Position numbers and translations under genes: made by a program. Positions 8,434 to 27,361 of a stretch of 64,000 bases of DNA are shown piece by piece; the stretch's first letter is position 1, and each line of letters starts with the position of its first letter. Origin of the DNA: Geminicoccus roseus DSM 18922. GTDB lineage: Bacteria; Pseudomonadota; Alphaproteobacteria; Geminicoccales; Geminicoccaceae. The notes below the pieces were generated by a model, which saw nothing but the letters and a program-made list of their open reading frames with translations, was not told where the DNA came from and did not search any database. The DNA lies in NCBI RefSeq assembly GCF_000427665.1, contig NZ_KE386572.1, positions 2,814,196 through 2,878,195 of the forward strand, in the 5' to 3' direction.

Positions 8434-8443
8434 GGAGGCCGGC

Positions 8444-9448
8444 ATGCGCGTCCTGATGACCGGTGCGAGCTCGTTCACCGGCGCCTGGATGGCCAGGCGC
8501 CTGGCCGGATCCGGGGCGGTGGTGACCGCCGCCCGCCGCGGCCGGACGGCCGAGGATGGTCCGCGGGTCCGCGAGCGCAGCGCGCTCCTGGCCCGGCGGG
8601 TACGCCAGGTCGACGAGGCGCCGTTCGGGTCCGACCGCTTCCTCGACCTGCTGGCGAACGAGGGTCCCCACGACATCCTGTGCATGCACGGCGCAACCGT
8701 CGGCGACCATCGCGCCGCCGACTTCGACGTGGTCGGGGCGCTGCGCGCCGACACCCATCGGATCAACCGGGTCCTGGAGCGGTTCGCCGCGCGCGGCGGC
8801 CGCACCCTCGTCTTCACCGGCACAGTGTTCGAGGCCGACGAGGGGCGCAGCGAAGCGCCCTGGGGCGCCATCGGCGGCTATGGCCTTGCCAAGTCGCTGA
8901 CCTGGCAGGTGGTCCGCCACGCCGCCGAGGAACGCCAGCTGTCCTTGGGCAAGTTTGTGATCCCCCATCCGTTCGGGCCGATGGAGAAGCCTGGCCTCAC
9001 CAGCATGCTGGCAGAATCCTGGCTCACCGGACAGGTGCCGACCCTGAAGGAGCCTGGCCTCGTCCGCGACCACATCCATGTCGACCTCCTGGCGCACGCC
9101 TATGCGCGGTTCGTGCACGAGACCCATGGCCGCCCGGACCCGAAGACGGTCCGGCATTGCGGACCCTCCGGCCGCGTCGAGACGATCGCCGGCTTCACCG
9201 CCCGCTTCGCCCGGGCCCTGGGCCCGCTCTTCGGCGTGCCGACCCGCTGGTCCGCGCAGAGCGGCCCGGGCGACCGGGTCCAGCCGCGGATCCGCTGCAA
9301 CACCGAGCCCACCGCCACCCTGCACCCGGATTTCGACGAGGCGCGGGCGTTCGAGGAACTGGCGGTCTGGTACCTGCAGCGCTTTGGCGGGGGCGGGCAT
9401 GCGCGGCGGCTGGCACGCCTGGTCGAACGCGTCTTCGAGCCGGCGTGA
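8444..9448 (+). CDS. NAD-dependent epimerase/dehydratase (SDR), probable 4-ketoreductase of the CDP-sugar branch
   Basis: Extended short-chain dehydrogenase of 334 residues. The N terminus has a Rossmann dinucleotide motif TGASSFTGAW, and the catalytic Tyr-Lys pair is in GGYGLAKS near residue 147. HPFGPMEKPG and RDHIHVDLL are segments typical of nucleotide-sugar reductases/epimerases. Placed 10 bases after the 3,5-epimerase, it is the natural candidate for the final 4-keto reduction to a CDP-6-deoxyhexose. Whether it reduces or epimerises cannot be read from the sequence. Cytoplasmic. Confidence 0.8.
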   Translation: MRVLMTGASSFTGAWMARRLAGSGAVVTAARRGRTAEDGPRVRERSALLARRVRQVDEAPFGSDRFLDLLANEGPHDILCMHGATVGDHRAADFDVVGALRADTHRINRVLERFAARGGRTLVFTGTVFEADEGRSEAPWGAIGGYGLAKSLTWQVVRHAAEERQLSLGKFVIPHPFGPMEKPGLTSMLAESWLTGQVPTLKEPGLVRDHIHVDLLAHAYARFVHETHGRPDPKTVRHCGPSGRVETIAGFTARFARALGPLFGVPTRWSAQSGPGDRVQPRIRCNTEPTATLHPDFDEARAFEELAVWYLQRFGGGGHARRLARLVERVFEPA

Positions 9449-9453
9449 CGGCG

Positions 9454-10392
9454 ATGCCCGGCCGCCCCGACATCGGCGTGATCGTGGTGACCCATGCAAG
9501 CCGCCGCCACCTGGACCGCTGCCTGCCGCCGCTGCTGGAGGCGCCGGAGCGGCCGCGGGTCCTGGTGGTCAACTCGTCCTCCGGCGACGGCACCGTCGAG
9601 CGGGCCCGGGCGCTGGGGGCGGAGACCTGGCTGGTGCCGCGGCAAAGCTTCAACCATGGCGCCACCCGCGAGCAGGCCCGCCGCCTGCTGGGCACCCCGG
9701 TCGTGGTGATGCTGACGCCGGACGCCTATCCGGCAGGGCCCAGCGAACTCGGTCGGCTGGTCCACCCGGTCCGGACCGGCCAGGCCGCCTGTGCCTATGG
9801 CCGCCAGCTCCCGCATGAGGGAGCCGATGCGGTCGAGGCGTTCGGCCGCGCCTTCAGCTATCCCGGCCAGAGCGAGCTGCGCTCCGCCCGCGACCAGGCC
9901 CGGCTCGGCAGCGGCGTGCATTTCTGTTCCAACGCCTGGGCCGCCTGGTCCAGCGCCGCCCTCGACCGGATCGGCGGGTTCCAACCGACCCTGGTGAGCG
10001 AGGAGACCATCGCGGTCGCCCGGCTGCTCCAGGCCGGCGAACGGGTCGCCTATGTCGCCGACGCCGTTGTCCGACACTCCCACCGCTACGGGCCGGTGCA
10101 GGAGTTCCGCCGCCATTTCGACATCGGCTGGACCCGCGCCCACCACGCCGCCCTGCTGCTGGCTTCCGGCGGCGACCAGGCCCGGGGCCGCCGGTTCGCC
10201 CGCCTGCTGCTGCGCGACCTGGCTGCCCGGGCGCCGGCGCGGCTTCCGGGCGTGCTCGTCGCGCTGGCCGCCAAGTGGCTGGGCTACCGGGCCGGCATGC
10301 TCGGCGCCCACCTGCCGAACCCGCTGGCCGCCATCCTGTCGGGCCAGGACTTCTTCTGGCGCAGCGACTTTGCACCGGGGAGGCAGCCATGA
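9454..10392 (+). CDS. Glycosyltransferase family 2
   Basis: GT-A fold glycosyltransferase of 312 residues, probably adding a 6-deoxyhexose or other sugar to a polyprenyl-linked oligosaccharide at the inner membrane. The start has the GT2 pattern IGVIVVTHASRRHLDRCL, VVNSSSGDGT (nucleotide-binding Asp) follows near residue 45, LTPDAYP is in the DXD position, and GGFQPTLVSEE is the acceptor-side acidic motif. The fold resembles bacterial rhamnosyltransferases, where an insertion of this size follows the DXD. Translation can start at ATG 9454 or at GTG 9445, which overlaps the preceding stop. Donor and acceptor are unknown. Confidence 0.85.
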   Translation: MPGRPDIGVIVVTHASRRHLDRCLPPLLEAPERPRVLVVNSSSGDGTVERARALGAETWLVPRQSFNHGATREQARRLLGTPVVVMLTPDAYPAGPSELGRLVHPVRTGQAACAYGRQLPHEGADAVEAFGRAFSYPGQSELRSARDQARLGSGVHFCSNAWAAWSSAALDRIGGFQPTLVSEETIAVARLLQAGERVAYVADAVVRHSHRYGPVQEFRRHFDIGWTRAHHAALLLASGGDQARGRRFARLLLRDLAARAPARLPGVLVALAAKWLGYRAGMLGAHLPNPLAAILSGQDFFWRSDFAPGRQP

Positions 10393-11510
10393 GGATCGCG
10401 ATCGTCACCAACAACGTGCTGCCGCCGCGGGAAGGGATCGGCCGGCATGTTCTGGAGACCGCGCAGCGCCTGGCCGCACGCGGCCACCAGGTCGAGGTGC
10501 TGGCCAAGGGCGAGGCGTTCGGCGAGGTCCGCACCAGCAAATTCGACCGGGTCCGCGTCCACCACTGGCCGCACCGGCCGCTGCGCCCTTTCCATCACCA
10601 GGCCACCCGCCCGCTGCTCCAGGACCTCCTGGACCGCCTGGGGCCATTCGACCTGCTGCACGCCCACCTGCCGCTCCTGCCGCTCCTGCGCACCGATGCC
10701 CGGGTGGTGGTCACCTGCCATGGCACCCTTGCCGCCGACACCGAATCCTTCACCGAGCGGTCCTGGCGCGCCGGGCTGATCCGGGGACAGGCCCGGCTGG
10801 TCGCCCGGCCGATGGAGCGGGCCTGGTTCGGCCGGGCCGAGCGGGTCGTGGCGGTGGCGGACTGCGTGAGGGAGGAGATCGTCCAGCGCTACGGCGTGGC
10901 GCCCGGCAAGGTCGCGGTCGTCCGCAACGGGGTGGACCTCGCCCGGTTTCCCTTCGAGCGCCGGGTGCGCGGCGGGACGCGGCTCCTGTTCGTCGGCCGC
11001 CTGGGCTGGCGCAAGGGCCTGTTCCGGCTGCTCGACGCGATGGCGAGGCTGCCCGACGAGGTCACCCTCGACCTGGTGGGCGAGGGGCCCCTGGAGGCCG
11101 ACCTGCGCAGCCACGCCATCCAGCTCGGGCTGGCGCACCGGCTGCACTTTCACGGCTTTCTGCCCCATCCGGAGGTGATCCTGGCGCATCGCGCCGCCGA
11201 CCTGTTCGTCAATCCCGCCGACTATGAGACCGGTCCGCTGACCCTCCTGGAAGCGATGGCGCTGGGCACGCCCCTGATCACCACCGCCACCGGCCTTGTC
11301 CGGGAAGTCGCGGCCGGCGCGCAGCTGCGCATCGCCGAGCGCACACCCGAGGCGCTGGCCGACGCGATCCGGTCGAGCCTGGGGAGCCCCGCCGAGATGG
11401 CGCGGCGCGCCCGCGACGCCCGCCGCACCGTGGAGCGCCAGCTCGGCTGGGAGCGGACGGTCGACGAACTCGCCGATCTTTTCGAGGAATCTCATCGAAA
11501 GGCTGCCTGA
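10389..11510 (+). CDS. Glycosyltransferase family 4
   Basis: GT-B fold transferase of 373 residues. The N-terminal domain starts MRIAIVTNNVLPPREGIGRHV, with the glycine-rich acceptor loop of GT4, and HAHLPLLPLL near residue 95 is the usual acceptor-domain His region. The C-terminal donor domain begins near residue 195 with LLFVGRLGWRKGL, and carries the E-x7-E type signature in FVNPADYETGPLTLLEAMALG. ATG overlaps the preceding stop (ATGA), showing translational coupling. Membrane-associated assembly of the repeat unit is likely. Donor sugar unknown. Confidence 0.88.
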   Translation: MRIAIVTNNVLPPREGIGRHVLETAQRLAARGHQVEVLAKGEAFGEVRTSKFDRVRVHHWPHRPLRPFHHQATRPLLQDLLDRLGPFDLLHAHLPLLPLLRTDARVVVTCHGTLAADTESFTERSWRAGLIRGQARLVARPMERAWFGRAERVVAVADCVREEIVQRYGVAPGKVAVVRNGVDLARFPFERRVRGGTRLLFVGRLGWRKGLFRLLDAMARLPDEVTLDLVGEGPLEADLRSHAIQLGLAHRLHFHGFLPHPEVILAHRAADLFVNPADYETGPLTLLEAMALGTPLITTATGLVREVAAGAQLRIAERTPEALADAIRSSLGSPAEMARRARDARRTVERQLGWERTVDELADLFEESHRKAA

Positions 11511-11513
11511 ACC

Positions 11514-13298
11514 ATGACTGGCCACGACGTCCTCGTCTGTTTCGGATTCGAGCAAGATCGCATCCGCCGCCAGCCATGGCATGTCGCGCGCGGCATCGCG
11601 CTCGGCCTGCGCGCGCGCGGCCGGCGGGTGACCATGCTCACCGATGCCGCCGCTCCCCCGGCCGGCGAGCCGTTCGCGGTGGCAAGCGTGCCCAGGCTGT
11701 TCGGACGCGACGAGCCCACCCGGGCGACCCGGGAGGCGCTGGCCGAGCTTCGGCCCGAGCGGATCTTCGTGGTGGTCGGCATCCACGAGTTCCTGCGGCC
11801 TGGCCGGTTCCGGCTGGGGGCGCCCACCTTCCTGGTGGTGGCGGCGCAGCCGTTCCGGCTGGGCGACTTCCTGCGGATCGCGCCGCTGGACCTGTGGCGC
11901 GAGCGCCATCTGCTCGGCCGCGCCCTGCTGGGCTCGCTGCTGCCGGGTGCCATGCTGCGCCGCGGGTTCAGGGCCAGCGGCGCCTCCGGCCTCGTCTTCG
12001 TGTCCGAGGCGGCCAAAGCGCGCTTCGCCGAGCTGGGGATCGAGGCGTCGGTGACCATCCATCCGCAGGTCGAGCCTCCCGCAGCACCGCCCGCCCGGGT
12101 CGGCACCTGGATCCCGACCATCCTCTACAGTGGCCCGCCCTTGGCCCTGCGCGGCGCCGACCTGGCGCTGCAGTCCTTCGAATATGCGAGGGCAGCGGGG
12201 CTGACGGCGCGGCTGCAGCTCCTGCTGCGGCCGGACGACCGGCCGGAGGCCACCCAGCGCTTCCTGGCGCGGGTCGAGCGCTCGCCCTGGCGCGCCTCCA
12301 TCGAGGTGGTGACCGGGATGCTTTCCGCCGACGAGATGAGCCGGCGCCTGTCCGCCGCCGACGTCCACCTGCTGCCGTTCCGGGTCACCGTCTCGGACGC
12401 CCCGCTGGTGGTGATCGAGGCCGGGCTCACCGGCCGGCCGGTCGTGGTGCTGGACACGGCTGGGGTCACCGAGTTCGCCCGCGCCTTCGACGGCCTGGTC
12501 GCGGCCTCCGCCGACGCGCTGCCCGACGCGCTGCGCCAGGCCTGCAGCCGGCCCCGCCAGGCGGTTGCGGCGCAGGGCTGGACCCGCTGGGAGCAGGCGG
12601 TGGCTCCCCTGGCCGAACTGGCGCCGCTCGGGCCCGAGCGCCTGGGCACGGTCGCCCTGATCGGCATCGACGGTGCCGGCAAGTCGGTGCTGGCCCAGCG
12701 GCTGCAGGCCCGCCTGGCGGATGCCGGCCATCGCAGCACCCATGTCTGGAGCCGCTTCCGCAACTATCTGAGCAAGCCCCTCCTGGCCCTGGCCCGCCTG
12801 ACCGGGCACAACCGCAAGCTGGTGGTCGGCGGGGTGAAGGTCGGCGTCCACGATTTCGAGAACCGGTACGGCCGGCCGTTCGTTTTCCTGCAGCGGATCG
12901 ACCTCGTGCTGGATGCCTGGCTGCGGGTGCGGCCCGCTTCGGCGCGCGGGCTCGTGGTGATGGACCGCTGCGCCCTGGACCAGCTGGTGGATGTCGCGGT
13001 CGATACCGGCCTCGACGACGAGCTCATCGACCGGCTGGCGCCGCGCCTGTTCGCGCTCCTGCCGCAGCCGGCCAAGGTGGTGCTGGTCGAGCGCGAGCCG
13101 CTGCTGATCGGCCGGACGCGTCCGGACGCCCTGATGGATCCCAAGCTCCTGCGCCGCCGGGCTGTCTACCGGCGCCTGGCCGCCCGCCTGGGGCTCCCTG
13201 TGCTCCTGAACGACGGCAGCATCGAGGCGGCCGACCAGCAGCTCGACCGGATCGTGGGCCTTGCACCGCCCTCCGACGCGCTAAGGGCGCAGGGTTGA
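11514..13298 (+). CDS. Fusion protein: GT-B glycosyltransferase domain plus thymidylate-kinase-like P-loop kinase domain
   Basis: A 594-residue two-domain protein in one uninterrupted frame. Residues 1-370 look like a GT4-type glycosyltransferase: LFVSEAAKARF-like acceptor segment, ILYSGPPLALRGADLAL, and VSDAPLVVIEAGLTGRPVVV near residue 303 in place of the usual donor-binding E-x7-E. From about residue 378 a P-loop kinase follows: Walker A GIDGAGKS (384-391), VWSRFRN near 422, and the DR motif of thymidylate kinases in MDRCALDQLVD (Asp484-Arg485). The kinase part has no stop or start between it and the transferase. It overlaps the next gene (TTGA). The kinase may phosphorylate a sugar or lipid acceptor; thymidylate itself is unlikely in this context. 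Function is not known. Confidence 0.78.
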   Translation: MTGHDVLVCFGFEQDRIRRQPWHVARGIALGLRARGRRVTMLTDAAAPPAGEPFAVASVPRLFGRDEPTRATREALAELRPERIFVVVGIHEFLRPGRFRLGAPTFLVVAAQPFRLGDFLRIAPLDLWRERHLLGRALLGSLLPGAMLRRGFRASGASGLVFVSEAAKARFAELGIEASVTIHPQVEPPAAPPARVGTWIPTILYSGPPLALRGADLALQSFEYARAAGLTARLQLLLRPDDRPEATQRFLARVERSPWRASIEVVTGMLSADEMSRRLSAADVHLLPFRVTVSDAPLVVIEAGLTGRPVVVLDTAGVTEFARAFDGLVAASADALPDALRQACSRPRQAVAAQGWTRWEQAVAPLAELAPLGPERLGTVALIGIDGAGKSVLAQRLQARLADAGHRSTHVWSRFRNYLSKPLLALARLTGHNRKLVVGGVKVGVHDFENRYGRPFVFLQRIDLVLDAWLRVRPASARGLVVMDRCALDQLVDVAVDTGLDDELIDRLAPRLFALLPQPAKVVLVEREPLLIGRTRPDALMDPKLLRRRAVYRRLAARLGLPVLLNDGSIEAADQQLDRIVGLAPPSDALRAQG

Positions 13299-14401
13299 TC
13301 CGGGTCTTCTACGCCAACGACCCGCAGGCGGCCGACCAGGGCGGCGGCGCCGAGCATTTCCGCGGCATCTTCCGCGCCCTGGCCGGCTCGGACCTGGACT
13401 GGCGGCTGGTGGCGGCCCGCCTGCAGGACCAGGACCATCCCCGGATCGACTACATCTCCCGCAGCTCGCATTTCGGCCGCTGGTACCTGGCCCTGTGGTG
13501 CTGGTTCTGGCGCAACCGCCACCGGATCGGCCGGGACGAGGTCCTGCATTTCCACCGCAACTACGCGGCCTGGCCGAAATACCTGCTTTGCCCCGGGCGC
13601 GGCCGGGTGGTGATCACCTACCACAATGTCAGCGGCCGGGTGCTGGACGGCCTGCTCGGGCGGCTGGCGCGCCCGATCCGCTTCTGGATGAAGCTGCTGG
13701 AGCGCCGGGCGGTGTCCCTGGCCGACCGGCTGGTCTGCGTCAGCGAGCGCGACCGCGCGGAACTGGAGCGCACGGTGGCGCCCGCCGCCTTCGCCCGCGC
13801 CGCCGTGCTGGCAGCCTCCGTGGACCTGCAGGGGCTGGCCGACCCGCCGCCGCGTCCGCCAGGCTCCTGCCAGCACCTCCTCCTGCTCGGCCGGCTGGAG
13901 CACCAGAAGAACCCGGAACGGGCGGTCGAGGTCCTGGAGGAACTGGTCCGACGGGACGACCAGGGCTGGACCCTCAGCATCGCCGGCGCCGGCAGCCTGC
14001 AGGCCCGGCTGGAGCGGCGGATCGCCGCCAGCCTGGCGCGCGGCCGTATCAGCTGTCTGGGCCTGGTCCCGCACGACCGGGTTGCGGCCCTTCTGGATGC
14101 CCACGACCTGCTGCTGCTCACCAGCCGCTACGAGGCCTCGCCGACCGTGGTGAAGGAGGCGTTGCTGCGGCAGCGGCCGGTGGTCGCCACCGATGTCGGC
14201 GACGTCCGGCGCTGGATCGAGCCCGGCAGCGGGCTGGTGTGCGACGACGATCCGGTGGCTCTGGCCGACGGGGTCCGGGCAATGGCGACGGTGCTCTCGT
14301 GCGGCGGCTACCGGCCGTCCAGCCGGCTGTCCGGCGATGTCGAGCGGGACCTGATGCAGCCGCTCATCGACCTCTACCGCACGGTCCTGGCTGGCGCGTG
14401 A
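13295..14401 (+). CDS. Glycosyltransferase family 4
   Basis: GT-B fold transferase of 368 residues, the third transferase of this operon. N-terminal FYANDPQAADQGGGAEHFRG is the glycine-rich loop; VITYHNVSGRVLDGL is the acceptor-domain central segment. The donor domain begins near residue 190 with LLLLGRLEHQKNPERAVEVL, has GLVPHDRVAALLDAHDLLLL, and ends in the donor signature SRYEASPTVVKEALLRQRPVVATDVGD. Start is TTG 13295, overlapping the preceding stop as TTGA, with AAGGG upstream; no ATG or GTG gives a full N-terminal strand. Donor sugar unknown. Confidence 0.86.
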   Translation: MIRVFYANDPQAADQGGGAEHFRGIFRALAGSDLDWRLVAARLQDQDHPRIDYISRSSHFGRWYLALWCWFWRNRHRIGRDEVLHFHRNYAAWPKYLLCPGRGRVVITYHNVSGRVLDGLLGRLARPIRFWMKLLERRAVSLADRLVCVSERDRAELERTVAPAAFARAAVLAASVDLQGLADPPPRPPGSCQHLLLLGRLEHQKNPERAVEVLEELVRRDDQGWTLSIAGAGSLQARLERRIAASLARGRISCLGLVPHDRVAALLDAHDLLLLTSRYEASPTVVKEALLRQRPVVATDVGDVRRWIEPGSGLVCDDDPVALADGVRAMATVLSCGGYRPSSRLSGDVERDLMQPLIDLYRTVLAGA

Positions 14402-15648
14402 CCGCCCTTCAGGATCGCCTGCTGCCGCTGCTGGTCGGTACCGGCGCCCGCCTGGCTGCGGCCTGCATCGGGCTGCTCGGCACCATGGTGGCCGCGCGGG
14501 CGCTGGGTCCGGAAGGCTGGGGCGCCTGGGTGGTGCTGTTCGCGCTGTTTGGCTGGAGCCAGCATGTCGCGGAATGGGGGCTGCGCGGCGTCGCCCTGCA
14601 GGAAGGCGGGCGGCGGGGGCATGCCTGCCCTGGTCTGGTGCGGGACCTGCTGCGGGCGCGGCTCCTGCCGCTTGGGCTGGCGATCGCCGGCCTTGTCGCC
14701 GCGACCCTGCTCTGGCGCCCCGAACTCCTGGTGGCGACGGTTTGGCTGGCCCTGGCCCTGGCCGCGATCGCGGTCAACCTAGACTGGGCGGCCCTGGTGC
14801 GGGGCAGCCCGCTGCCGGCGGGCGCCACCCAGGTCCTGCGCCCGGTCCTGTTCCTGCTGGCCGTGCTGCTCCTGCCGGGGCCGCTGGGTGCTGGCGGGCT
14901 GGCGTTCGCCACCTTCGCCGGCTGGGCGGGCTCGGCGGCGCTGGCGGCGCTGGAGCTCAAGCGGATGCCGCCAGCACCGTTTGGCCGGCGGCCGCTGGGT
15001 GCCGGCCGCCTCCTGTCCGCGGGTACCCCCTATTTCCTGGTCAGCGCCGCCAACCAGCTGGCGCTGTCGGCGGACCTGCTCCTGGTGGCGCTGGTGCTGG
15101 GCACGAAGGCCGCCGGCACGTTCGGTCTGGTGGTCACCATTGCGCAGACCGCGACCCTGGCGGCCCAGGCGAGCGCGCAATGGTGGCTGGCCCAAGGGGG
15201 CCTCGCCCGGGCCGGGTCGCCGGGTCCGGCGCGGCTGCGCCTGGTCCTGGTCGAGACCGGGACGCTCGGCCTGCTGGCGGCAGCCGGCCTGGCGGTGCTG
15301 GGACCGCCCCTGGTGCGGCATCTGTTCGGGCCGGCCTGGCAGGCGGCGGCCCTGCTGTTGCCGATGGCGAGCCTCTATGTGGTGCTGGTCCATGTCTCGG
15401 CGGTGCTGGCGGCTCTGGCCTGCGCGCAAGGCGCGGCGCGCCAGGTGGCCGGGCTGCAGCTCGGCAGCCAGGTCCTGTCCTGGCCGGCACTGCTGCTGCT
15501 GGCCGGGTGGTGGGGGCTGGAGGCGGCGGTCCTGCTGCGCGGCGGCGTCGAGCTGGCGCGGGTGCTGGGGCTGGCATGGATCTGCCGATACCTGCCGGCG
15601 GTGCAGGTCCGACCAGAAGCGAATCCTGATCCGGTGATAATTCAATAA
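14398..15648 (+). CDS. Polysaccharide flippase (Wzx/oligosaccharide translocase type)
   Basis: Integral membrane protein of 416 residues, very rich in Leu, Ala, Val and Gly, with about twelve hydrophobic segments spread over the whole length. The N-terminal segment GLLGTMVAARALGPEGWGAWV is the pattern of the polysaccharide_synt/MATE-like flippases that move undecaprenyl-linked repeat units to the periplasmic face. It starts at GTG 14398 overlapping the previous stop (GTGA) and is the last gene of the operon. No Wzy polymerase, Wzz or initiating phosphoglycosyltransferase is in the window, so polymerisation and export must use genes elsewhere. Confidence 0.83.
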   Translation: MTALQDRLLPLLVGTGARLAAACIGLLGTMVAARALGPEGWGAWVVLFALFGWSQHVAEWGLRGVALQEGGRRGHACPGLVRDLLRARLLPLGLAIAGLVAATLLWRPELLVATVWLALALAAIAVNLDWAALVRGSPLPAGATQVLRPVLFLLAVLLLPGPLGAGGLAFATFAGWAGSAALAALELKRMPPAPFGRRPLGAGRLLSAGTPYFLVSAANQLALSADLLLVALVLGTKAAGTFGLVVTIAQTATLAAQASAQWWLAQGGLARAGSPGPARLRLVLVETGTLGLLAAAGLAVLGPPLVRHLFGPAWQAAALLLPMASLYVVLVHVSAVLAALACAQGAARQVAGLQLGSQVLSWPALLLLAGWWGLEAAVLLRGGVELARVLGLAWICRYLPAVQVRPEANPDPVIIQ

Positions 15649-15818: not shown

Positions 15819-16793
15819 ATGGCTGCTTCGACCCGCGAGCTGCATGCGTTGCTCAACCGCGAGAGCCGGGCGTTCCGCGAGGAGCGGCGCAGCGCCACGG
15901 TGACCCGCTTCCCGTCGTGGCGGAGCCGCTCGCCGGAGCTGGAGCTGGAGCATCTGAGCGTGGAGCTGGATGCCTCGGCGGGTCTGCTGTTCGCGCGGAT
16001 GAAGCACCGCGCCCGGGCCTGCTACACCCCGGCCCTGATGCAGGACATGCGCCGCCTGCAGCACCACCTGGTCGAGCTCTATGCCGGCCGCCCGGCCGAG
16101 GAGATCCCGTTCCGCTACCTGGTCTGGGCGTCCGAGGCGCCCAAGGCCTGGAGCCTGGGCGGCGATCTCGCCACCTTCACCGGGATGATCCGTGCCAAGG
16201 ACGAGGCCGGGCTGCGCGCCTACGCCCATCTCGCCATCGACATCCTGCACGACAACCTGACCAGCCTGGGCCTGCCGATCCTGACCGTGGCGCTGATCCA
16301 GGGCGACGCGATCGGCGGCGGCTTCGAGGCGATGCTCACCGACGACCTGGTGATCGCCGAGGCTAGCGCCAAGTTCGGCCTGCCCGAGATCCTGTTCAAC
16401 CTGTTCCCCGGGATGGGCGGCTACAGCTTCCTCAAGCGCAAGCTGGGCGCCGCCCTGGCCCGGCAGATCCTGGAGGACGGCCTGTCCCGCTCGGCGGCCG
16501 AGGTCAAGGCGCTGGGCCTGGTCGACCTGGTCTGCGCCGAGGGTCAGGCCGAGGCGACCTTGCGCGGCTACGTCGCCGACAACGCCCGCCGCTTCAAGAC
16601 CCTGCTCACCCTCAAGCAGGTCCGCGAGCGCGCCGATCCGCCCTGCAAGGCCGAGCTGGTCGACATCGTCGACCTGTGGGTCGACCTCGCCCTCGACCTC
16701 GGCGAGGACGAGCTGCGCCGCATGGACTGCCTCGCCCGTGTCCAGGAAAAAAAGCGGGCGACCCCGGGCGGCCGCAGCTGCACCGCCGCCTGA
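15819..16793 (+). CDS. rpfF: DSF synthase (RpfF, crotonase family)
   Basis: Crotonase-fold enzyme of 324 residues that makes cis-2-unsaturated fatty-acid signals (diffusible signal factor) by dehydrating 3-hydroxyacyl-ACP and releasing the acid. RpfF-specific features are the oxyanion segment WSLGGDLATFTGMIRAKDE (110-129) and the two catalytic glutamates, Glu170 in QGDAIGGGFEAML and Glu190 in GLPEILFNLFPGMGGYSF; these stand 20 residues apart, as Glu141 and Glu161 do in Xanthomonas RpfF. An ordinary enoyl-CoA hydratase would not have the LFNLFPGMG stretch. Start ATG has GGAG eight bases upstream. The gene ends in a strong terminator and faces an RpfC-like kinase operon, as in Xanthomonas. The 170 A/T-rich bases before it contain its promoter. 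Confidence 0.9.
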   Translation: MAASTRELHALLNRESRAFREERRSATVTRFPSWRSRSPELELEHLSVELDASAGLLFARMKHRARACYTPALMQDMRRLQHHLVELYAGRPAEEIPFRYLVWASEAPKAWSLGGDLATFTGMIRAKDEAGLRAYAHLAIDILHDNLTSLGLPILTVALIQGDAIGGGFEAMLTDDLVIAEASAKFGLPEILFNLFPGMGGYSFLKRKLGAALARQILEDGLSRSAAEVKALGLVDLVCAEGQAEATLRGYVADNARRFKTLLTLKQVRERADPPCKAELVDIVDLWVDLALDLGEDELRRMDCLARVQEKKRATPGGRSCTAA

Positions 16794-16826
16794 TCTTCTT
16801 TCCGTTTTTCTCCGCGTTCCCCGCTC

Positions 16827-16865
16827 GGCGCGATGCCTCCCGGCATCGCGCCTTTTCTTTGTTTT
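16827..16865 (+). terminator. Intrinsic terminator of rpfF
   Basis: An 11-base perfect stem, GGCGCGATGCC (16827-16837) and GGCATCGCGCC (16842-16852), with a TCCC loop, is followed by TTTTCTTTGTTTT. It lies 33 bases after the rpfF stop and is a textbook rho-independent terminator. Confidence 0.93.
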
Positions 16866-18135
16866 CCGGGCTATCCGGTTGCAATGGCGATCCAACGCCG
16901 ATGCCAGCCTGGAACGGGCGGCCAGGCCGTCCGGCCACGACCAATGGGATCGGCCGGCGGGCCAACCTCACCCCCTAACCTTGGTCCCGCCCATCCTGAG
17001 AATCGGCCGGGCCGGATCGGCGGTGCTGCAGCTCCGCGCCGCAGGCATGGGCTGGCCGGCATGGGAGCAGTGGGGGGCTGTTCCGGAAGCTTCGCCGTTG
17101 CGGGCGGCCTTCGGGCAGACGCCGAACAGGACAGTCGCGCCGCTCGCACCGGTGCCCTGCTGCCTCGGCTGGCCTGCTCGGGCAGCAGTGACCAGGCGGA
17201 CGCTGCTGCCCGATGTCCGCCGGCAGCCTCTCCAGCACCGCAGGCACCTGCGACATGCTCGCAGCCGGATGGTGGCTCGATGCCGTTGCTGGGCGCGCGG
17301 CGTCCCTCCCGGACGGGAACGGTATGCCGGGTCACCGCCAGGCCCTGTGCGCCTGGATGAGCAATGCATGGCGCCACCGATCAGGTGGTGATGCACTGGA
17401 CCTGCCCCCAGGAGGGGACAGCCTCAGCGCCAGCAACCGGTCCGCCGGCAGAGCGATCAATGACGTGCTGGCAGCGGCTTGGAGGAATGTCGGTCAGCCG
17501 GTGCTGCTCAGGAGGCGCGCCGGCCGCTGCCAGTGGCTGGCGAAGGGGGCAGTGCTTCGGAAGCGGGCCTCCGGATACCACCTGATCCGAGGGAGGTCGC
17601 CGCAGGCGGCCATGTCGGGATGACGAGGAGGCGTTGAGGCCGCTCGAGGCTTGGGGCAGCACTCACCCAGGGGCCATCCCTGGGAAAGCCGCCGGTCGGG
17701 CGGGAGGGGACGCCTGTGTTCTCAGGACGGCCGCTTCGCGCCTCGCGCCCATTGCCGTCTCGGTGGAGCAGCGCCGGCTGAGGCGTTCAGGGTGGCTTTT
17801 CGTTCCGTCACTCGGGTCGGCGGGCCGAAAGTCTTAGGCTGCTGCTGGGACTGCCTGGGAAACGGGAATGGATCTGGTCCCGGCTCCCGGCCATGGCGAA
17901 GGTTTGACGTCGTGCCGGGATGGCGCCTGAAGCGGCCGGACCGCCGGAGGGCCATGCGCCGGGAAGGCGCCTTGAGGAATCCGGCTGCCTTCCATGGGCA
18001 GGTTCCGCGGCGCGGCTTCCGCAACCAGCCCGTTCCGCCCGGTTAAAGCCGGCACGGAGCGGAACGGCCGCCTCGCCAGGGCGCACGGACCTCGGCCACG
18101 GAACGTCCCGGAGCAGGATCCGGATGGACAAGGAT
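16866..18135. other. Long gene-free spacer between convergent rpfF and rpfC
   Basis: About 1.27 kb between the rpfF terminator and the rpfC stop codon. Several open frames cross it on both strands, but none has a ribosome binding site, a recognisable domain or a family resemblance, and the translated products are rich in Arg, Pro and Ala as expected of chance frames in high-GC DNA. I see no tRNA or mobile element. It may hold a decayed gene or a non-coding RNA; neither can be shown here. Confidence 0.5.
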
Positions 18136-20754
18136 CTAGCTTCTCCCGGCGTGCTCGGTTTGCCAGGCCAGCAGGCCGGTCGCGGCCCGTTCCAGTTCCA
18201 GCTGGAGGCGCTGGACTTCCGCCGGGCCGCGCGCCAGCAGCCGGGCGTCGTCCAGGCCGCGCCAGCCCAGCAGCACGTCGAACAGCGCGCTCGCCCCGAC
18301 ATGGGCGGCGCTGCTGCGCAGGGCATGGGCATGGTCGCGCATGGCGGCGGCATCGCCCTCCGCCACCGCCCGCTCGATCGCGTGGATCAGTTCGCCGGCC
18401 TCGGCGACGAAGGTGTCGATCAGCTCCTCCACGAAGCCGTCGCCATGGTCCAGCGCCGCCAGCCCGTCCAGCTTGCGCCGGTCGAGGGCAGGCCGGCCTT
18501 CGCTGGCGGGGGCCAGCGCCAGGGCCGGGCGGGCCTCGGCGGGCGCGGCGGGCCGTGCCGGCAGGTCCGGCCTTGCCGGCGCAGCCGGTCGTGGAGGCGC
18601 CGCCCTCTGGCCTGATGTGGCGGGATGGACGACGCGCAGGCTGGCGGGGGCCGGGGGTGGACTGGCGGGGGGCTGGGGGCGGACGCGGTTCTCGACCAGG
18701 CGGTCGATCTGGGCCAGCAGGATGGGCGCGTCGATCGGCTTCACGGCATGGCCGGCAAAGCCGACCTGGCGGCATTCCTCGACGGTGGCCTCGGTGACGT
18801 CGGCGGTCAGCGCCAGCACCGGCGGCAGCTCGTCCTCGACAAAGCGCAGCAGCTTGAGCGCCTCGATCCCGCTCATGCCCGGCATGTTCAGGTCCATCAG
18901 CACCAGGTCGAACGCCTCGGCGGCGATCCGGTCGACCGCCTCCTGCCCGGAGCCGACCACCACCACCTGGTGCCCGGCGCTCTCCAGGATCCGCCTGGCC
19001 ACCTGCTGGTTGGTCAAATTGTCCTCGGCCACCAGCAGCCGGGCCGGATGCGCCGCCCGCACCGGCGCCGGGCGGCCGTCGGGCAGGGCCTGGTGCGGCG
19101 CCAGCGCCGCGCGCACCAGCACCGGCAGGTCCCGCTCCAGGTCCGGCGCCGCCAGCGCCGCCAGGGCAGCGTCCGGGACCGGCCGCTCCGGCGGCTGCAC
19201 CAGCACCAGGTCGACGCTGCCCTCGATCCGCCGCGCCACCAGCTGGGCCAGCTCGGCCAGGTCCTCGGCCAGCGGCTCGGCCAGCACCAGCAGCTTGCGG
19301 CCATGGCCCAGGCGCAGCGCCCGCACCGCGCTGGCCAGGTCGCCGGCGGCCATGGCCGCAGCGCCGGCCGCCTCCACCGCCGCCCGGGCCCGCGCCGCCA
19401 GGTCTCCCCGGCCCAGCACCACCACGGTGCCGTGCAGCGGGAAGGACGCCACCGTCGGGGCCGGGGCCGGCGCCAGCGGCAGCACGAAGCCGAACCGGGC
19501 GCCTTCGCCCACCGTACTGGCCAGGGTCAGCCGCCCGCCCATCAGCTCCACCAGCTCCTTGGCGATGGTCAGCCCCAGCCCGGTGCCGCCATAGGCCCGG
19601 TTGGTGGTGTCCTCCGCCTGGGTGAAGCTCTCGAAGATCCGCGCCTGCAGCTCAGGCGGGATGCCGATCCCGGTGTCCTCGACCACGAAGCCGACCCCGG
19701 CCCGGCCGTCCGGCAGCGCCGCCCTGGCCACCCGCAGGGTCACCCCGCCCTGCTCGGTGAACTTCAGCGCGTTGGCGACCAGGTTGGCCAGCACCTGCTG
19801 CAGGGCGGCGACGTCGCCCGACAGATGCGGCGGCACGCTTGGGTCCAGCACCAGGCGCAGCCACAGGCCGCGCGCCTGCGCCTGCGGCTCCAGCATGCCG
19901 CGCAGGACGCCCAACAGCGCGTGCAGGTCGAACGGCTTGGTCACCACCACGAACCGGCCGGCCTCGATCTTGGCCGCGTCCAGCACCGCGTCGACCAGCC
20001 CCAAAATGGTGCCGGCCGCGGTGCGGATCGTGCCGACCATCTCGCGCCGGTCGTCGTCGGCCTCGTCCTGGCGCAGCAGGTCGGACAGGCCGATCACCGC
20101 GTTGAGCGGGGTGCGGAACTCGTGACTCATCACCGCCAGGAACCGGCTCTTGGCCTGGTTGGCGGCCTCGGCGCGGCGGATCGCCTGCTCCAGCTTGCGC
20201 AGCAGCACCGACACGTAGGCCGGCAGCACCACCAGGGCCAGGATCATCGCCACGTCCAACGCCGGCACCTGCCGCCAGTCCGGGTTGAGCAGCACCACCA
20301 GCCCGAACAGCACCAGCGACACCGCCGCCGAGCCGAACAGATAGGGCCGGCCATAGCGAAAGCCGTGGCCGAAGATGATCCACAACAGGATCGGGTAGAA
20401 CGGCGCCGCGGTCATCCCCCCCGCCAGCATCACCGCGTTCACCCCGCCGGTGTCGATCAGCATCCCCAAAACCCGGCGCACCACGCTCACCCCGGGCCAC
20501 ACCAGAATATGCACCAGAACCAGAACCGCCAAAACCAGCGCAACCACGCTGATCCCAAGGCCCAGCAGGAGGAACCGGGCCGGATCGGCATGGGTGGGGG
20601 AGGCGGCCAGGATGTAGAGGGCGATCGCCAGCGCGAACCCGATCCGGATCAAGGCCTGCTCGTGCTCGGTGTCCGGACGCGAGGCCAGGCGCTGGCGGAA
20701 CCTGGCCAGGAGGCCCGGCCGCTCGGCCGGCGGGACCGGTTCAGCCGCGGCCAA
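18136..20754 (-). CDS. rpfC: RpfC-like hybrid sensor histidine kinase (TM input, HisKA, HATPase, REC, HPt)
   Basis: 872-residue hybrid kinase, the probable DSF receptor. The cytoplasmic N-terminal stretch RLASRPDTEHEQ (23-34) matches the juxtamembrane input region of RpfC, followed by about five to six membrane segments (residues 36-190). HisKA has His211 in SHEFRTPLN; the ATPase has N-box LVANALKFTE, G1 EDTGIGIP and G2 GGTGLGLTIAKEL. A degenerate receiver-like segment (440-550) precedes a true receiver with Asp578 and phospho-acceptor Asp621 in LMDLNMPGMSG and Lys672. A Pro/Ala-rich linker (692-755) leads to an HPt domain with His810 in AHALRSSAAHVG. Start is TTG 20754, 27 bases after the stop of the response regulator gene, so both are one operon, convergent to rpfF. 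Autophosphorylation and relay to the neighbour are inferred. Confidence 0.88.
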   Translation of the reverse strand: MAAAEPVPPAERPGLLARFRQRLASRPDTEHEQALIRIGFALAIALYILAASPTHADPARFLLLGLGISVVALVLAVLVLVHILVWPGVSVVRRVLGMLIDTGGVNAVMLAGGMTAAPFYPILLWIIFGHGFRYGRPYLFGSAAVSLVLFGLVVLLNPDWRQVPALDVAMILALVVLPAYVSVLLRKLEQAIRRAEAANQAKSRFLAVMSHEFRTPLNAVIGLSDLLRQDEADDDRREMVGTIRTAAGTILGLVDAVLDAAKIEAGRFVVVTKPFDLHALLGVLRGMLEPQAQARGLWLRLVLDPSVPPHLSGDVAALQQVLANLVANALKFTEQGGVTLRVARAALPDGRAGVGFVVEDTGIGIPPELQARIFESFTQAEDTTNRAYGGTGLGLTIAKELVELMGGRLTLASTVGEGARFGFVLPLAPAPAPTVASFPLHGTVVVLGRGDLAARARAAVEAAGAAAMAAGDLASAVRALRLGHGRKLLVLAEPLAEDLAELAQLVARRIEGSVDLVLVQPPERPVPDAALAALAAPDLERDLPVLVRAALAPHQALPDGRPAPVRAAHPARLLVAEDNLTNQQVARRILESAGHQVVVVGSGQEAVDRIAAEAFDLVLMDLNMPGMSGIEALKLLRFVEDELPPVLALTADVTEATVEECRQVGFAGHAVKPIDAPILLAQIDRLVENRVRPQPPASPPPAPASLRVVHPATSGQRAAPPRPAAPARPDLPARPAAPAEARPALALAPASEGRPALDRRKLDGLAALDHGDGFVEELIDTFVAEAGELIHAIERAVAEGDAAAMRDHAHALRSSAAHVGASALFDVLLGWRGLDDARLLARGPAEVQRLQLELERAATGLLAWQTEHAGRS

Positions 20755-20781
20755 GCCGCATCTTCCCGCAGGTCCGCCGCC

Positions 20782-22929
20782 TCATCCGGGCCATCTCCGG
20801 CCGGCGCCCGGATAAAGGCGCTCGAACTCCTCGGCCGGCATCGGCATGCCGATCAGGTGGCCCTGGATCTGGTCGCAGCCGACCCGCTGCAGGGCGGCAC
20901 GCTGACCCTGGGTCTCCACCCCCTCAGCGAGGACGGTCAGCCCCAGGGTGCGGGCGAGCTCCACGATCATGTGCACGATCCGGCCGGACTGAGCGTCGTT
21001 CTCGATCTCGAGCACGAACTGGCGGTCGATCTTGAGCCGGTGCACCGGCAGGCGCTGCAGATAGGCCAGGGACGAATAGCCGGTGCCGAAATCGTCCAGG
21101 GACAAGGACAGGCCGAGCCCGGACAGAAAGCGCATCGTGGCCATCGCCTGGGTGGTGTTCTCGAACAGCGCATCCTCGGTGATCTCGATGTCGATCCATT
21201 TCGGGTCGATCCCGGTCTCCGCCAGGAGCTGGCCGATCTGCCGCTCCACGCCCTTCTCCCGGAACTGGCCGGGGCTGATGTTGACCGACAGGTTGAAGCC
21301 GCCGATCCCGCGCTCCTGCCAGGCGCCCAGCTGCCGGCAGGCCTGCTGCAGCACCCAGTTCGACAAAGGCGCGATCAGCCCGATATCCTCGGCGACATGC
21401 AGGAACTCGCCCGGGCGCACGATGCCGCGATGCGGGTGGTTCCAGCGCACCAGCGCCTCGACGCCCACCAGCTGCCCGGTGCGCAGGTCCTGCTGGGGCT
21501 GGTAGTAGACCGTGAACTGCCGGGAGGTGAGGGCCTGGCGCAGCTCGCGCTCGAGCTGGATCGTGCGCTTGGCGGTGACGTTCATCTCCTCGGCGAAGAA
21601 CCGCCAGGTGTCGCGCCCGGACTGCTTGGCCCGGTGCATGGCAAGCTCGGCATTGCGCAGCAGCTGGTCCAGGTCATGGGCGTCGGTCGGCCAGACGGTG
21701 ACGCCCATCGAGGCGCTGACGCTGATCTCGCGGTCCTCGATCTGGAACGGCTCGGCGAAGATCTCGCTCAAGCGGCCGCACAGCTCGGCGGCCTCGTCCG
21801 GCCGGCGCAGGCCCGGATGCACCACCAGAAACTCGTCGGAGCGCAGGCGGCCCAGGGTCTCGACCTCCTTCATCCGGCTGCGCAGCCGCCGCGCCAGGGC
21901 CTGGAGCAGGGTGCTGCCGAACGCATCGCCATAGGCGTTGTTGAAGCTCTTGAACCGGTCGATGTCGAGATGCACCACGGCCAGCAGCGTGCCGTCGGCG
22001 CTGGTGCGCCCGATCTCCTGGCTGATCCGCTCCAGGAGCGCGGGGAACGAGGGCAGGCCGGTCAGCGCGTCGACCCGCACCGCCGGCTGGACACCGGCCT
22101 CGGCGCGGAGCAGCCCGTCGATCTCCTGCCAGATGGTCAGCACATGGGCGACCTGGCCGGCCGGATCGGCCAGCGGCGCGCAGGTCAGGAGGATGCGCCG
22201 CGCCGCCTCGCCGGTGCCGACCGCCTCGACCCAGGGATGCTCCGGCGCCTGGCCGGTCTCCAGGACCTTGTCGGCCTGGAGCCGGTGGCGCAGCGCAAAC
22301 TCCTCGCCCAGAAGCTCGTCCAGGCGCGGCAGCCGGCCAGGGCGGTGCGGCGCCTGCGGCAGGTCCAGGCCCATCAGGCGGGCCCAGCTGGCGCTGGCCG
22401 CCACCACCCGGCCGAGCGGATCGGTGACGAAGGCCGGCATCTCCAGCCGCTGGCACAAGGCAGCCGGGTCGAGCAGCAGGGCGGCGCTGCCGCCCTCGCC
22501 GACCAGGCGCTGTTCCAGGTCGGCCGCCCGTTCCGCCAGCAGACGCTGCTGGCGGCGCATGGTCAGCAGGTTCTTGACCCGGGCCCGGAACTCCAGATGG
22601 TCGACCGGGCTCAGCAGGAAGTCGGTGGCCCCGGCCTCCAGGGCCCGGTAGCAGAAGTCGCGGTCCTCGTAGACGGTCACCACGATGATCGGGATCAGCT
22701 CGCAGCCGGCCTGGCCGCGCAGCTGGCGGATCAGCTCCGCCCCGTTCATCCCCGGCATGTTGAAGTCGGTGACCACCAGGTCGGGAACGCTGTCCGCCGT
22801 GATCGAGGCCAGGGCGTCGGTCGGGGAGGCGAAGGCCTGCACCCTCAACCCTTCCTCGACCGACTGGGCGAGCCGGGTCAGAACGTTGCGGTTGGTGACC
22901 CGGTCGTCGATCACCATTATCCTGGCCAT
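20782..22929 (-). CDS. Response regulator with REC-PAS-GGDEF-EAL architecture (c-di-GMP phosphodiesterase type)
   Basis: 715-residue regulator upstream of rpfC in the same operon, in the position that rpfG has in Xanthomonas. The receiver (1-125) has Asp8-Asp9 and phospho-acceptor Asp55 in VTDFNMPGMNG, but serine stands where the conserved Lys is expected (LLSPVD). A PAS-like segment spans about 150-275. The GGDEF domain (285-445) is degenerate: the signature reads RSDEF (363-367), so diguanylate cyclase activity is unlikely, although it may still bind GTP. The EAL domain (455-705) looks complete: EALVRW (491-496), NLSVNISPGQF, IEITEDALF, DDFGTGYSSLAYL, KIDRQFV and EGVET. The predicted output is c-di-GMP hydrolysis controlled by phosphotransfer from RpfC. 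Confidence 0.92.
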   Translation of the reverse strand: MARIMVIDDRVTNRNVLTRLAQSVEEGLRVQAFASPTDALASITADSVPDLVVTDFNMPGMNGAELIRQLRGQAGCELIPIIVVTVYEDRDFCYRALEAGATDFLLSPVDHLEFRARVKNLLTMRRQQRLLAERAADLEQRLVGEGGSAALLLDPAALCQRLEMPAFVTDPLGRVVAASASWARLMGLDLPQAPHRPGRLPRLDELLGEEFALRHRLQADKVLETGQAPEHPWVEAVGTGEAARRILLTCAPLADPAGQVAHVLTIWQEIDGLLRAEAGVQPAVRVDALTGLPSFPALLERISQEIGRTSADGTLLAVVHLDIDRFKSFNNAYGDAFGSTLLQALARRLRSRMKEVETLGRLRSDEFLVVHPGLRRPDEAAELCGRLSEIFAEPFQIEDREISVSASMGVTVWPTDAHDLDQLLRNAELAMHRAKQSGRDTWRFFAEEMNVTAKRTIQLERELRQALTSRQFTVYYQPQQDLRTGQLVGVEALVRWNHPHRGIVRPGEFLHVAEDIGLIAPLSNWVLQQACRQLGAWQERGIGGFNLSVNISPGQFREKGVERQIGQLLAETGIDPKWIDIEITEDALFENTTQAMATMRFLSGLGLSLSLDDFGTGYSSLAYLQRLPVHRLKIDRQFVLEIENDAQSGRIVHMIVELARTLGLTVLAEGVETQGQRAALQRVGCDQIQGHLIGMPMPAEEFERLYPGAGRRWPG

Positions 22930-25018: not shown

Positions 25019-27361
25019 TCACCGGGCGGCCGGCGTCAGCTCCAGCCGGACCGGCAGGTCGCGCGAGGGCAGCGTGGTCCGCCGGTCGGCGGCGTAGCGG
25101 TCGACCCCGTCGCCGAACCAGCGCGACCAGGGATGCCCGCTCTGTCCGCCGGCGGCGACGATCTGGATCGCGTCGGGCTCCGCCAGGTCCACCAGGATCC
25201 GCAGGCTGGCTGCGTGGGTGACGGTCCGGCGCACCAGGGCCGGATCGACCGAGGCACCGGCGACGTCGACGCTGTACGGATCGCCGGCCTTCCTGGCGGC
25301 GTGGCCGAACAGGCGGCCCAGGACGGGCACGCTGTCCAGCACCGGATGCGGCAGGAGCGCGGTCTGGACCTCGTGCAGGGACCAGGCCTCCCGCTCCGGC
25401 CCGAACGTCGCCACCAGGGCCTGGTGCGCCTGCGCCAGGGCCCGGGCGGCCAGCGCCGCGCAGTCTTCCGTCACCGGAGTGCGCCGGTCGTCGCACCAGG
25501 CCTGTCGCTGGCGGACCACCCGGACCAGGAACGCACCGCGCAGGCCGCCGACTTCGCCGGCGGCAGCGCCCAGTTCGTCGCTGCGGACCAGCCGCGACAG
25601 ATGCTCGGCGAACGCCAGGAACAGCCCGGCCCGCCAGCTGTCCTCGGCCATCGTGCCGTCCCAGCCGCGCATGGCGTCGCGCAGTTCCGCCAGGGCCGGC
25701 GGCAACCCGTCCGTCCGGAGCAGGACCGGCAGCAGGTCGCGGGCGAAGCCGGAGCGATGGTCGCGCTGGATCCGGATCAGGTCGGTGCCGTCCAGCCGGT
25801 CGCGCCCCGCCAGGAGGGCCTCGATCCGCCGGCGCCGCCAGACCGGCTCGGCGGTGGCGCTGATCGTGTAGGGGTAGTCGCCGTCCTCGACCCGGTCGTT
25901 GCCGTTGGCGACAACGCCCGTGGCCGGATCGAGCCTGACCGGCAGCTGGTCGGCCGGGATCGTTCCGACCCAGTCGGACTCCCCGCTGGCGCCGTCGCCC
26001 GGCATGGAGCCGTCGCCGCTGCGCCGGATCGGCACCGCGCCGGCCACCAGCAGCCCGACCGCGCCGGTCGCGTCGGCGGCGACGAAGTTCTGGACCGGGT
26101 TGCGATACGCCGCCAGCACGGTGCGCAGTTCCTGGAGGTCGGCGGCATGAGCCAGGCGGAAGCCCGCCGCGATCGTGGTGTCGGCGGGATCGAGCGCCGT
26201 CCAGGAAAGGCTCAGCACCGTGCCGGGCCGGGCGGCATCCTCCATGAGGTCGGAGATCACCGGGCCGTGCCGGGTCCGGCGCACCTCAAGCGTCTCTGGC
26301 TGGCCGCCCGCGACCCGGATCGTCTCCTGGCGCAGCTCGAACGGCTGCGGACCGTCCGGGGTGAGGTAGCGGGACGGATCGGCCGGATCCAGGGTCTCGA
26401 CGAACAGGTCCTGCACGTCGGCGCCGGTGGTGGTCAGGCTCCAGGCAAGCGTGTCGTTGCGGCCGATCACCACGAACGGCAGGCCCGGCATGGTGGCGCC
26501 GGTGACGGCAAGGCCGGGGGCGCGCAGATGCGCCAGGTACCACACCCCGGGCGTGCGCAGTTCGAGATGCGGGTCGCCGGCCAGGAGGGCGGCGCCGCTG
26601 GCGCTGCGCGAGGCCGCCACCGCGAAGGCGTTGGAGCCGGTGCCGGGCCCGGGAGGAGCCGGGAGCGTCGCCAAGAGCCGGCTGGCCCGGGCCGCCGGCA
26701 GGGCCTGCCGCTCCGGCTCTGGCGCTTGGATGCCCGGCCAGAGGTCCTGGAGCTGGTCCGGCGAGAGCAGCCCGGCTAGGCGGCTGCGCAGCAGCTCGCC
26801 GTTCATGTCGCCGTCCAGGGTCAGCGCCATCATCTTGATCCAGACCGCGCTGTCCGCCGCGGTCCAGGGCTCCGGCTCGTGCCAGAAGATCCAGAACTCC
26901 GGCGGCAGCAGGCGGTCGCGGCCCTCGATCCAGTCGTTGATGCCCCGGACATAGGCGTCCAGCAGGTCGCGGGAATGGGGATCCAGTGCCGCCAGCGACG
27001 CTTCGGCCGCCTGGCGCAGGCCCAGCACCCGCAGGTAGCGGTCCACCGGCAGCGCTGCGGCGCCGACCACCTCCGCCAGCCTGCCCTGGGCGACCCGGCG
27101 CTGGAACTCCATCTGCCAGAGCCGGTCCTGCGCCTGGGCGTAGCCCAGCGCCCGGTAGGCGTCGCGCTCGCTGGACGCCTGAATATGCGGCACGCCGAAC
27201 ACGTCGCGGGCGATGGTGGCCGGGCCGTCCAGCCCCTGAAGCGCCTGGCTGCCGCGGATCCCGGGCAGCGAGCCGATCCCGATCGCCAGGACCGGGAGCG
27301 CAGCGGCGGCGGCCGCGAGGGCGAGGGCGCCGGCCAGCCGGCGCAGCGCCCGCCTGGCCAT
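25019..27361 (-). CDS. Penicillin acylase family protein (Ntn-hydrolase), exported
   Basis: 780-residue precursor of an N-terminal-nucleophile amidohydrolase. Residues 1-30 form a signal anchor/peptide (RRALRRLAG followed by an Ala/Leu core), so it acts in the periplasm. The alpha-chain begins with ATIARDVFGVPHIQA and GYAQAQDRLWQME. The autoproteolytic nucleophile is Ser243 in PGTGSNAFAV, followed by LLAGDPHLEL, and NDTLAWSLTTTGADVQD lies in the oxyanion region, as in penicillin G acylase and quorum-signal acylases. Members cleave penicillins, N-acyl homoserine lactones or other amides; substrate is not predictable. Start ATG overlaps the HAD gene stop (TGATG), so the two are translated from one message. 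Confidence 0.9.
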   Translation of the reverse strand: MARRALRRLAGALALAAAAAALPVLAIGIGSLPGIRGSQALQGLDGPATIARDVFGVPHIQASSERDAYRALGYAQAQDRLWQMEFQRRVAQGRLAEVVGAAALPVDRYLRVLGLRQAAEASLAALDPHSRDLLDAYVRGINDWIEGRDRLLPPEFWIFWHEPEPWTAADSAVWIKMMALTLDGDMNGELLRSRLAGLLSPDQLQDLWPGIQAPEPERQALPAARASRLLATLPAPPGPGTGSNAFAVAASRSASGAALLAGDPHLELRTPGVWYLAHLRAPGLAVTGATMPGLPFVVIGRNDTLAWSLTTTGADVQDLFVETLDPADPSRYLTPDGPQPFELRQETIRVAGGQPETLEVRRTRHGPVISDLMEDAARPGTVLSLSWTALDPADTTIAAGFRLAHAADLQELRTVLAAYRNPVQNFVAADATGAVGLLVAGAVPIRRSGDGSMPGDGASGESDWVGTIPADQLPVRLDPATGVVANGNDRVEDGDYPYTISATAEPVWRRRRIEALLAGRDRLDGTDLIRIQRDHRSGFARDLLPVLLRTDGLPPALAELRDAMRGWDGTMAEDSWRAGLFLAFAEHLSRLVRSDELGAAAGEVGGLRGAFLVRVVRQRQAWCDDRRTPVTEDCAALAARALAQAHQALVATFGPEREAWSLHEVQTALLPHPVLDSVPVLGRLFGHAARKAGDPYSVDVAGASVDPALVRRTVTHAASLRILVDLAEPDAIQIVAAGGQSGHPWSRWFGDGVDRYAADRRTTLPSRDLPVRLELTPAAR

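Follow-up and report, generated by a model that had tools for sequence, protein, structure and literature searches.

Organization of the rpf locus

We analyzed a 64,000-nucleotide stretch of contig NZ_KE386572.1 from Geminicoccus roseus DSM 18922 (5.7 Mb genome, 5 contigs), referred to here as the window, which carries a candidate quorum-sensing module of the diffusible signal factor (DSF) family. The module consists of rpfF, encoding a DSF-type synthase, and a convergent two-gene operon in which a REC-PAS-GGDEF-EAL response regulator gene is followed, 27 bases downstream, by the sensor kinase gene rpfC. The features are listed below by window position.

15819..16793, plus strand: rpfF, DSF-type synthase of the crotonase superfamily (Pfam ECH_1)
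16794..18135, no strand: 1.34-kb intergenic gap between the convergent rpfF and rpfC
18136..20754, minus strand: rpfC, hybrid sensor kinase (Pfam HisKA-HATPase-REC-Hpt; first start TTG)
20657..20680, minus strand: codons of the RPDTEHEQ sensing motif, RpfC residues 26-33, matching the essential residues of PMC5391125
20782..22929, minus strand: response regulator gene in the place of rpfG (Pfam REC-PAS_4-GGDEF-EAL)
22525..22929, minus strand: receiver domain of the regulator, orthologous to the RpfG receiver
20815..22104, minus strand: GGDEF-EAL output half of the regulator

Sixteen further Geminicoccaceae genomes have the three genes in this order and orientation (17 with the window), a repetition that puts the arrangement far beyond chance. 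In total, loci containing both rpfF and rpfC numbered 116 after removal of duplicates, and their regulators were of the GGDEF-EAL type in 59, REC-PAS-HisKA-HATPase (the kinase type) in 24, HD-GYP in 9, neither kind in 7 and absent in 17, counts that over-represent close relatives of the window.

The gap between rpfF and rpfC measures 11-560 bases in most of the relatives measured, compared to 1.34 kb here. It yielded neither a Pfam nor an Rfam match and is present in a single copy in the genome, and thus shows no sign of a mobile element or an RNA.

The synthase and the sensor kinase

The closest solved structures to the window RpfF were RpfF-type synthases (Xanthomonas RpfF 3m6m, E 4e-45), with ordinary crotonases appearing from E 2e-14 on. 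Residues G86, G138, E141 and E161 of Xanthomonas RpfF are required for DSF synthesis (PMC9040811). Their equivalents in the window protein, G128, G180, E183 and E203, are all conserved; E183 and E203 correspond to the catalytic glutamates, as claimed in a first-pass annotation of this DNA, and G128 and G180 to the thioesterase glycines. These numbers count from an upstream ATG at 15780, and the start at 15819 is backed by a methionine that is invariant across the module-linked family.

We considered the possibility that the protein is an ordinary enoyl-CoA hydratase and its neighborhood accidental. It scored 175.7 bits against the narrow NCBIfam RpfF equivalog model and so missed the cut-off of 550. 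However, solved RpfF proteins were better matches than other crotonases by about 30 orders of magnitude in the structure-relative search, the broad family model PRK08788 was passed (285.8 bits, cut-off 177) and the linkage with rpfC is conserved, making this explanation highly improbable. The genome has 23 crotonase-like candidates, and no more than three of them matched the window RpfF at E<=1e-20: the window copy itself and two further rpfF genes.

RpfC comprises a DSF-sensing stretch (R26 to Q33), five hydrophobic segments, HisKA (His211), HATPase, REC (Asp621) and a histidine phosphotransfer (HPt) domain (His810). DSF sensing by Xanthomonas RpfC requires Arg15, Asp17, Ser18, Glu19 and Gln22, with Thr allowed at Ser18 (PMC5391125). 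The window protein reads R-P-D-T-E-H-E-Q, thus presenting the five residues at matching spacing with Thr in place of Ser18. The claim that the kinase keeps the RLASRPDTEHEQ input region therefore held, with the motif as given in the first-pass annotation and its sensing residues conserved. The residue set was kept in RpfC of 17/17 Geminicoccaceae. The Gln22 equivalent was also kept in 23 of 24 kinase-type modules and in all nine HD-GYP types, and was replaced by Met, Ile, Leu or Thr in each of the 42 EAL-type modules from outside the Geminicoccaceae (e.g. L099, L121, L142, L158). It is thus in the Geminicoccaceae that an EAL output is paired with the complete Xanthomonas-like sensing signature; the ligand detected by EAL types of other families may be another one. 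The phosphorelay residues were retained throughout the loci (kinase His, 116/116; HPt His, 116/116; regulator Asp, 99/99).

The regulator in the place of RpfG

The receiver of the window regulator carries the acidic pair D8 D9, Asp55 and Thr85, all invariant, and has Ser107 (codon 22607-22609) at the position of the switch Lys, which is Lys in solved PleD; the canonical receiver signature is thus kept except for the switch Lys. Among the rpf-linked HD-GYP regulators this position is Lys in eight and Arg in one. In all 90 other rpf-linked regulators of the set it is Ser, Thr or Ala, and the substitution, mostly to Ser, is seen in every alphaproteobacterial regulator examined, whether with an EAL, a kinase or no output.

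We searched the genome with an rpf-linked REC-HD-GYP protein from a gammaproteobacterial metagenome-assembled genome (L129). Only receivers matched this query, the best being that of the window regulator (E 1e-35) and the next-best reaching E 5e-13. Neither this query nor the family model PF13487, which does find matches in other genomes, detected an HD-GYP domain in the genome. The regulator thus occupies the rpfG position, and its receiver, the best match to that of an rpf-linked RpfG, shares descent with the RpfG receiver. The first-pass annotation had placed an EAL-type regulator with Asp55 in the rpfG position and had asked whether an HD-GYP RpfG lies elsewhere; the Pfam architecture and these searches agree with the former and turned up none of the latter.

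The nine EAL residues whose metal- and substrate-binding roles are established from RocR-type enzymes (E491, N550, E582, E585, D612, D613, K633, E669 and Q689) are all present and are invariant in 26 homologues. The GGDEF motif is degenerate, a point absent from the first-pass annotation: it is RSDEF in the window regulator, and the pattern [RA]SDE[FL], with both active-loop glycines gone, covers this protein and the eleven relatives nearest to it. The cyclase half of the window regulator is therefore probably inactive. The predicted output of the first-pass annotation, breakdown of cyclic di-GMP (c-di-GMP), is consistent with this combination of a complete EAL signature and a degenerate GGDEF, and we retain it as an inference. 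In a predicted structure (mean predicted local distance difference test score, 86; predicted template-modelling score, 0.50) the REC, PAS, GGDEF and EAL folds were recovered; the modelled folds are reliable and the modelled packing of the domains is not. A fold search with the model placed the GGDEF-EAL proteins PA0575 and MorA nearest, followed by DosP, PA0861 and RocR.

A receiver-PAS chassis with exchangeable outputs

The EAL module is real, and its gene layout is repeated in the Geminicoccaceae and in many other families. It is not confined to this organism: at least 12 other families of Alphaproteobacteria yielded EAL-type modules, and there is a sister type whose output is a kinase. At E<=1e-40, rpfF was detected in 27 of 387 evenly drawn alphaproteobacterial genomes and in 51 of 397 pseudomonadotal genomes. 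The kinase type was commoner than the EAL type in the evenly drawn alphaproteobacterial sample, and all nine HD-GYP regulators came from outside the Alphaproteobacteria. The seven regulators of neither kind consist of REC-PAS only in Roseomonas and Crenalkalicoccus and have HisKA_2 in Skermanella. The REC-PAS_4 regulators without an output (Roseomonas, Crenalkalicoccus) are located as follows.

L102:12264-13028
L114:12274-13035
L105:12404-13264

The linker and PAS between receiver and output are homologous in the EAL, kinase and PAS-only types (hhalign, 99-100%), compared to 65% for the Geminicoccaceae regulator PAS profile against the PAS of RpfR. The alphaproteobacterial regulator is thus a conserved receiver-PAS chassis with exchangeable outputs, namely GGDEF-EAL, HisKA, HisKA_2 or none. 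Kinase-output modules were found at L170 (genome G100) and at L165/L167 (genomes G357/G133), and G100 and G133 yielded no EAL and no HD-GYP domain. As a lead, the modules of these last two genomes, if working, would act without a known c-di-GMP phosphodiesterase. In a gammaproteobacterial family of small genomes (f174; L193, L194, L196-L199 and others) rpfF-rpfC was present, and most members had no regulator adjacent to it.

Origin of the EAL output

In a tree of RpfF and RpfC, the Geminicoccaceae modules formed one clade (Shimodaira-Hasegawa-like approximate likelihood ratio test [SH-aLRT], 99) among the kinase types and apart from the other EAL types, and the receiver tree agreed with this placement. 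The GGDEF-EAL halves of the rpf regulators clustered together when compared with 59 background proteins (SH-aLRT 89, not starred) and with a smaller background (SH-aLRT 95), and a single EAL clade on the module tree was not rejected by the approximately unbiased test (p-AU 0.22). The EAL output on the rpf receiver may therefore have been gained once and then lost, exchanged, or gained twice.

Descent of the regulator from RpfR, the PAS-GGDEF-EAL receptor of Burkholderia, was rejected. In the GGDEF-EAL tree the 10 RpfR-type proteins grouped by themselves (SH-aLRT 100) and were separate from the rpf-linked regulators. The suggestion in the first-pass annotation that the locus joins the two known designs is thus not correct as a matter of descent, as the output half of the window regulator falls outside the RpfR clade. 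This half groups instead with rpf-linked regulators, so that its resemblance to RpfR is, on this tree, convergent.

Further rpf copies in the genome

A second rpfF-rpfC pair lies at 2.234-2.238 Mb of the contig (L051:8330-11953; G000:C5:2234329-2237952). In an 867-base stretch of rpfF its DNA is 99% identical to that of the window copy, and in a 2100-base stretch of rpfC the identity is 97%; it differs at the rpfF start, in the loop between the first and second transmembrane segments and from the linker to the HPt. The flanks have a much lower G+C content, and the HPt is far less like those of relatives than the window HPt. Such a mosaic points to gene conversion into a copy on an island. The third rpfF (L052:8937-9830) is an orphan, 53% identical and without rpfC; its neighbors are LysR-like and tripartite-transporter-like genes.

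Proposed signalling and alternatives

We propose that the window probably encodes a DSF-family quorum-sensing module in which an RpfC relay to the EAL regulator would lower c-di-GMP. The analysis established the gene order, the homologies, the conserved residues, the absence of HD-GYP and the separation from RpfR, and we infer the identity of the signal, its sensing, the phosphotransfer, the hydrolysis and the direction of the response. RpfF would convert a 3-hydroxyacyl-acyl carrier protein to a cis-2-unsaturated fatty acid, and binding of this signal at the short stretch directly before the first membrane helix of RpfC would switch on the autokinase. Judging from the conserved residues, phosphate would then pass from His211 to Asp621, to His810 and finally to Asp55 of the regulator, whose receiver-PAS part would hand its state to the GGDEF-EAL output. 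The EAL half would hydrolyze c-di-GMP; the GGDEF half, having lost its catalytic motif, is probably at most a GTP-binding regulatory part. The predicted net effect is less c-di-GMP at high cell density, the outcome attributed to RpfG reached through an unrelated fold.

Several observations weigh against this proposal. The switch position is Ser in 17/17 Geminicoccaceae receivers, so the effect of phosphorylation on the regulator may differ from the usual one. The second rpfF-rpfC pair has no EAL partner, so the signal output is not the sole possible role of RpfC. The only genome of the same genus that we examined (G001) had no rpfF at E<=1e-20. Furthermore, a GGDEF-EAL architecture is compatible with a cyclase, a phosphodiesterase or a receptor, and GGDEF is intact in most other regulators, including those of distant Geminicoccaceae and other EAL types.

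The last point bears on whether the net output could be c-di-GMP synthesis or a bifunctional switch instead of breakdown, as might be expected from the intact GGDEF of several family members and the intact or near-intact motif in all Rhizobiales or Acetobacteraceae types scored. The loss of the active-loop glycines in the window regulator and the eleven relatives nearest to it, together with the intact EAL, argues against such an output, which we regard as very improbable.

The receiver substitution speaks for a scheme in which the fatty-acid signal is sensed but the regulator serves mainly as a scaffold or c-di-GMP receptor. Its receiver would contact RpfC constitutively or independently of phosphorylation, and its GGDEF-EAL part would act through protein contacts, like LapD- or trigger-type proteins. 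The REC-PAS-only regulators of some Roseomonas also fit, as the chassis is kept there without an enzyme. Against this, the nine catalytic EAL residues are invariant across the homologues and Asp55 and Thr85 are retained in every sequence, and we consider a scaffold unlikely.

It is also conceivable, and in our judgement quite improbable, that the kinase-regulator pair answers an input other than DSF, the product of rpfF being meant for another receptor or being another fatty acid. RpfC-like input domains do occur in kinases unlinked to rpfF, such as PA1396 (cited in PMC4504480), and rpfF without rpfC is found in several Geminicoccaceae as well as in the third copy of this genome; however, the pair co-localizes strictly with rpfF over many families and the five sensing residues are fully conserved in the Geminicoccaceae.

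The proposed RpfC relay to an EAL enzyme could be extended. PAS_4 reportedly binds DSF in RpfS. The alphaproteobacterial receiver-PAS_4 chassis might then be a second fatty-acid receptor whose receiver domain is non-canonical and whose output can be exchanged freely. DSF would in that case be seen outside by RpfC and inside by the regulator, and lineages without a c-di-GMP phosphodiesterase would route DSF into a second kinase. We offer this extension as an unlikely, speculative one.

Neighboring genes

Directly before rpfF (window 5936-15648) is a polysaccharide-type cluster encoding epimerases, a nucleotidyl transferase and group 1 glycosyltransferases, a possible target of the signalling. 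Near the module, the window also encodes a penicillin amidase family protein (25019-27361), of a family that includes acyl-homoserine lactone acylases. Other genes of the window encode an RTX-repeat protein (29936-31036) and two small proteins (31572-32593) whose starts look secretion-like and which carry repeats rich in Asn and Gly.

Comparison with known systems

Two core DSF designs, RpfC/RpfG and RpfR, are recognized in a 2015 review (PMC4504480) and again in a 2026 review (PMC13220807), and the other bacteria with rpfF-rpfG-rpfC listed in the former include no alphaproteobacterium. Full-text literature searches, with most subscription journals outside their coverage, turned up no paper on an alphaproteobacterial EAL regulator that works with RpfC and RpfF. 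In the first-pass annotation, too, such a system was not known to be characterized in an alphaproteobacterium of this kind, and the EAL-type wiring is likely new to the literature. An RpfC kinase driving an EAL enzyme would be a third, apparently undescribed wiring of DSF signalling.

The window module resembles the Xanthomonas RpfF/RpfC/RpfG system in the catalytic residues of the synthase, the RpfC sensing residues, the five hydrophobic segments, the HK-REC-HPt order, the orthologous receiver and the rpfC-regulator operon convergent to rpfF, a layout of the Xanthomonas type (PMC4504480). It differs in that Xanthomonas RpfG is REC-HD-GYP, whereas the window regulator has a PAS-GGDEF-EAL output and Ser for the switch Lys, in a genome without a detected HD-GYP. 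With the RpfF/RpfR system of Burkholderia and Enterobacterales it shares an RpfF beside a PAS-GGDEF-EAL protein and the predicted breakdown of c-di-GMP. However, RpfR lacks both a receiver and a partner kinase, whereas the window regulator has a receiver and an adjoining kinase gene; the GGDEF-EAL parts of RpfR proteins form a fully supported clade of their own, and the window PAS matches that of RpfR at 65% compared to 100% for rpf-linked kinase-type regulators (hhalign). EAL response regulators of the RocR/PvrR type likewise combine a receiver with an EAL output and an intact phosphodiesterase signature but, unlike the window regulator, have no linkage to a DSF synthase or RpfC and no PAS-GGDEF between receiver and EAL.

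The rpfF-rpfC-REC-PAS-HisKA modules that we found in Kiloniellales and other Alphaproteobacteria have the same synthase, kinase, receiver-PAS chassis and layout; they differ by having a second histidine kinase as output, with at least two such genomes lacking both EAL and HD-GYP. This sister type is a test case for whether DSF signalling needs c-di-GMP. The EAL design seems to be common among Alphaproteobacteria, and its carriers include the culturable genera Gluconacetobacter, Roseococcus, Rhizobium sp., Aureimonas, Pseudovibrio, Microvirga and Inquilinus. It suggests that coupling of DSF to c-di-GMP arose via different enzymes. To us the more interesting part of the findings is that, across Alphaproteobacteria, one receiver-PAS chassis carries interchangeable outputs. 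This natural series, with sensor and receiver the same and the output different, provides material on the exchange of output domains in response regulators.

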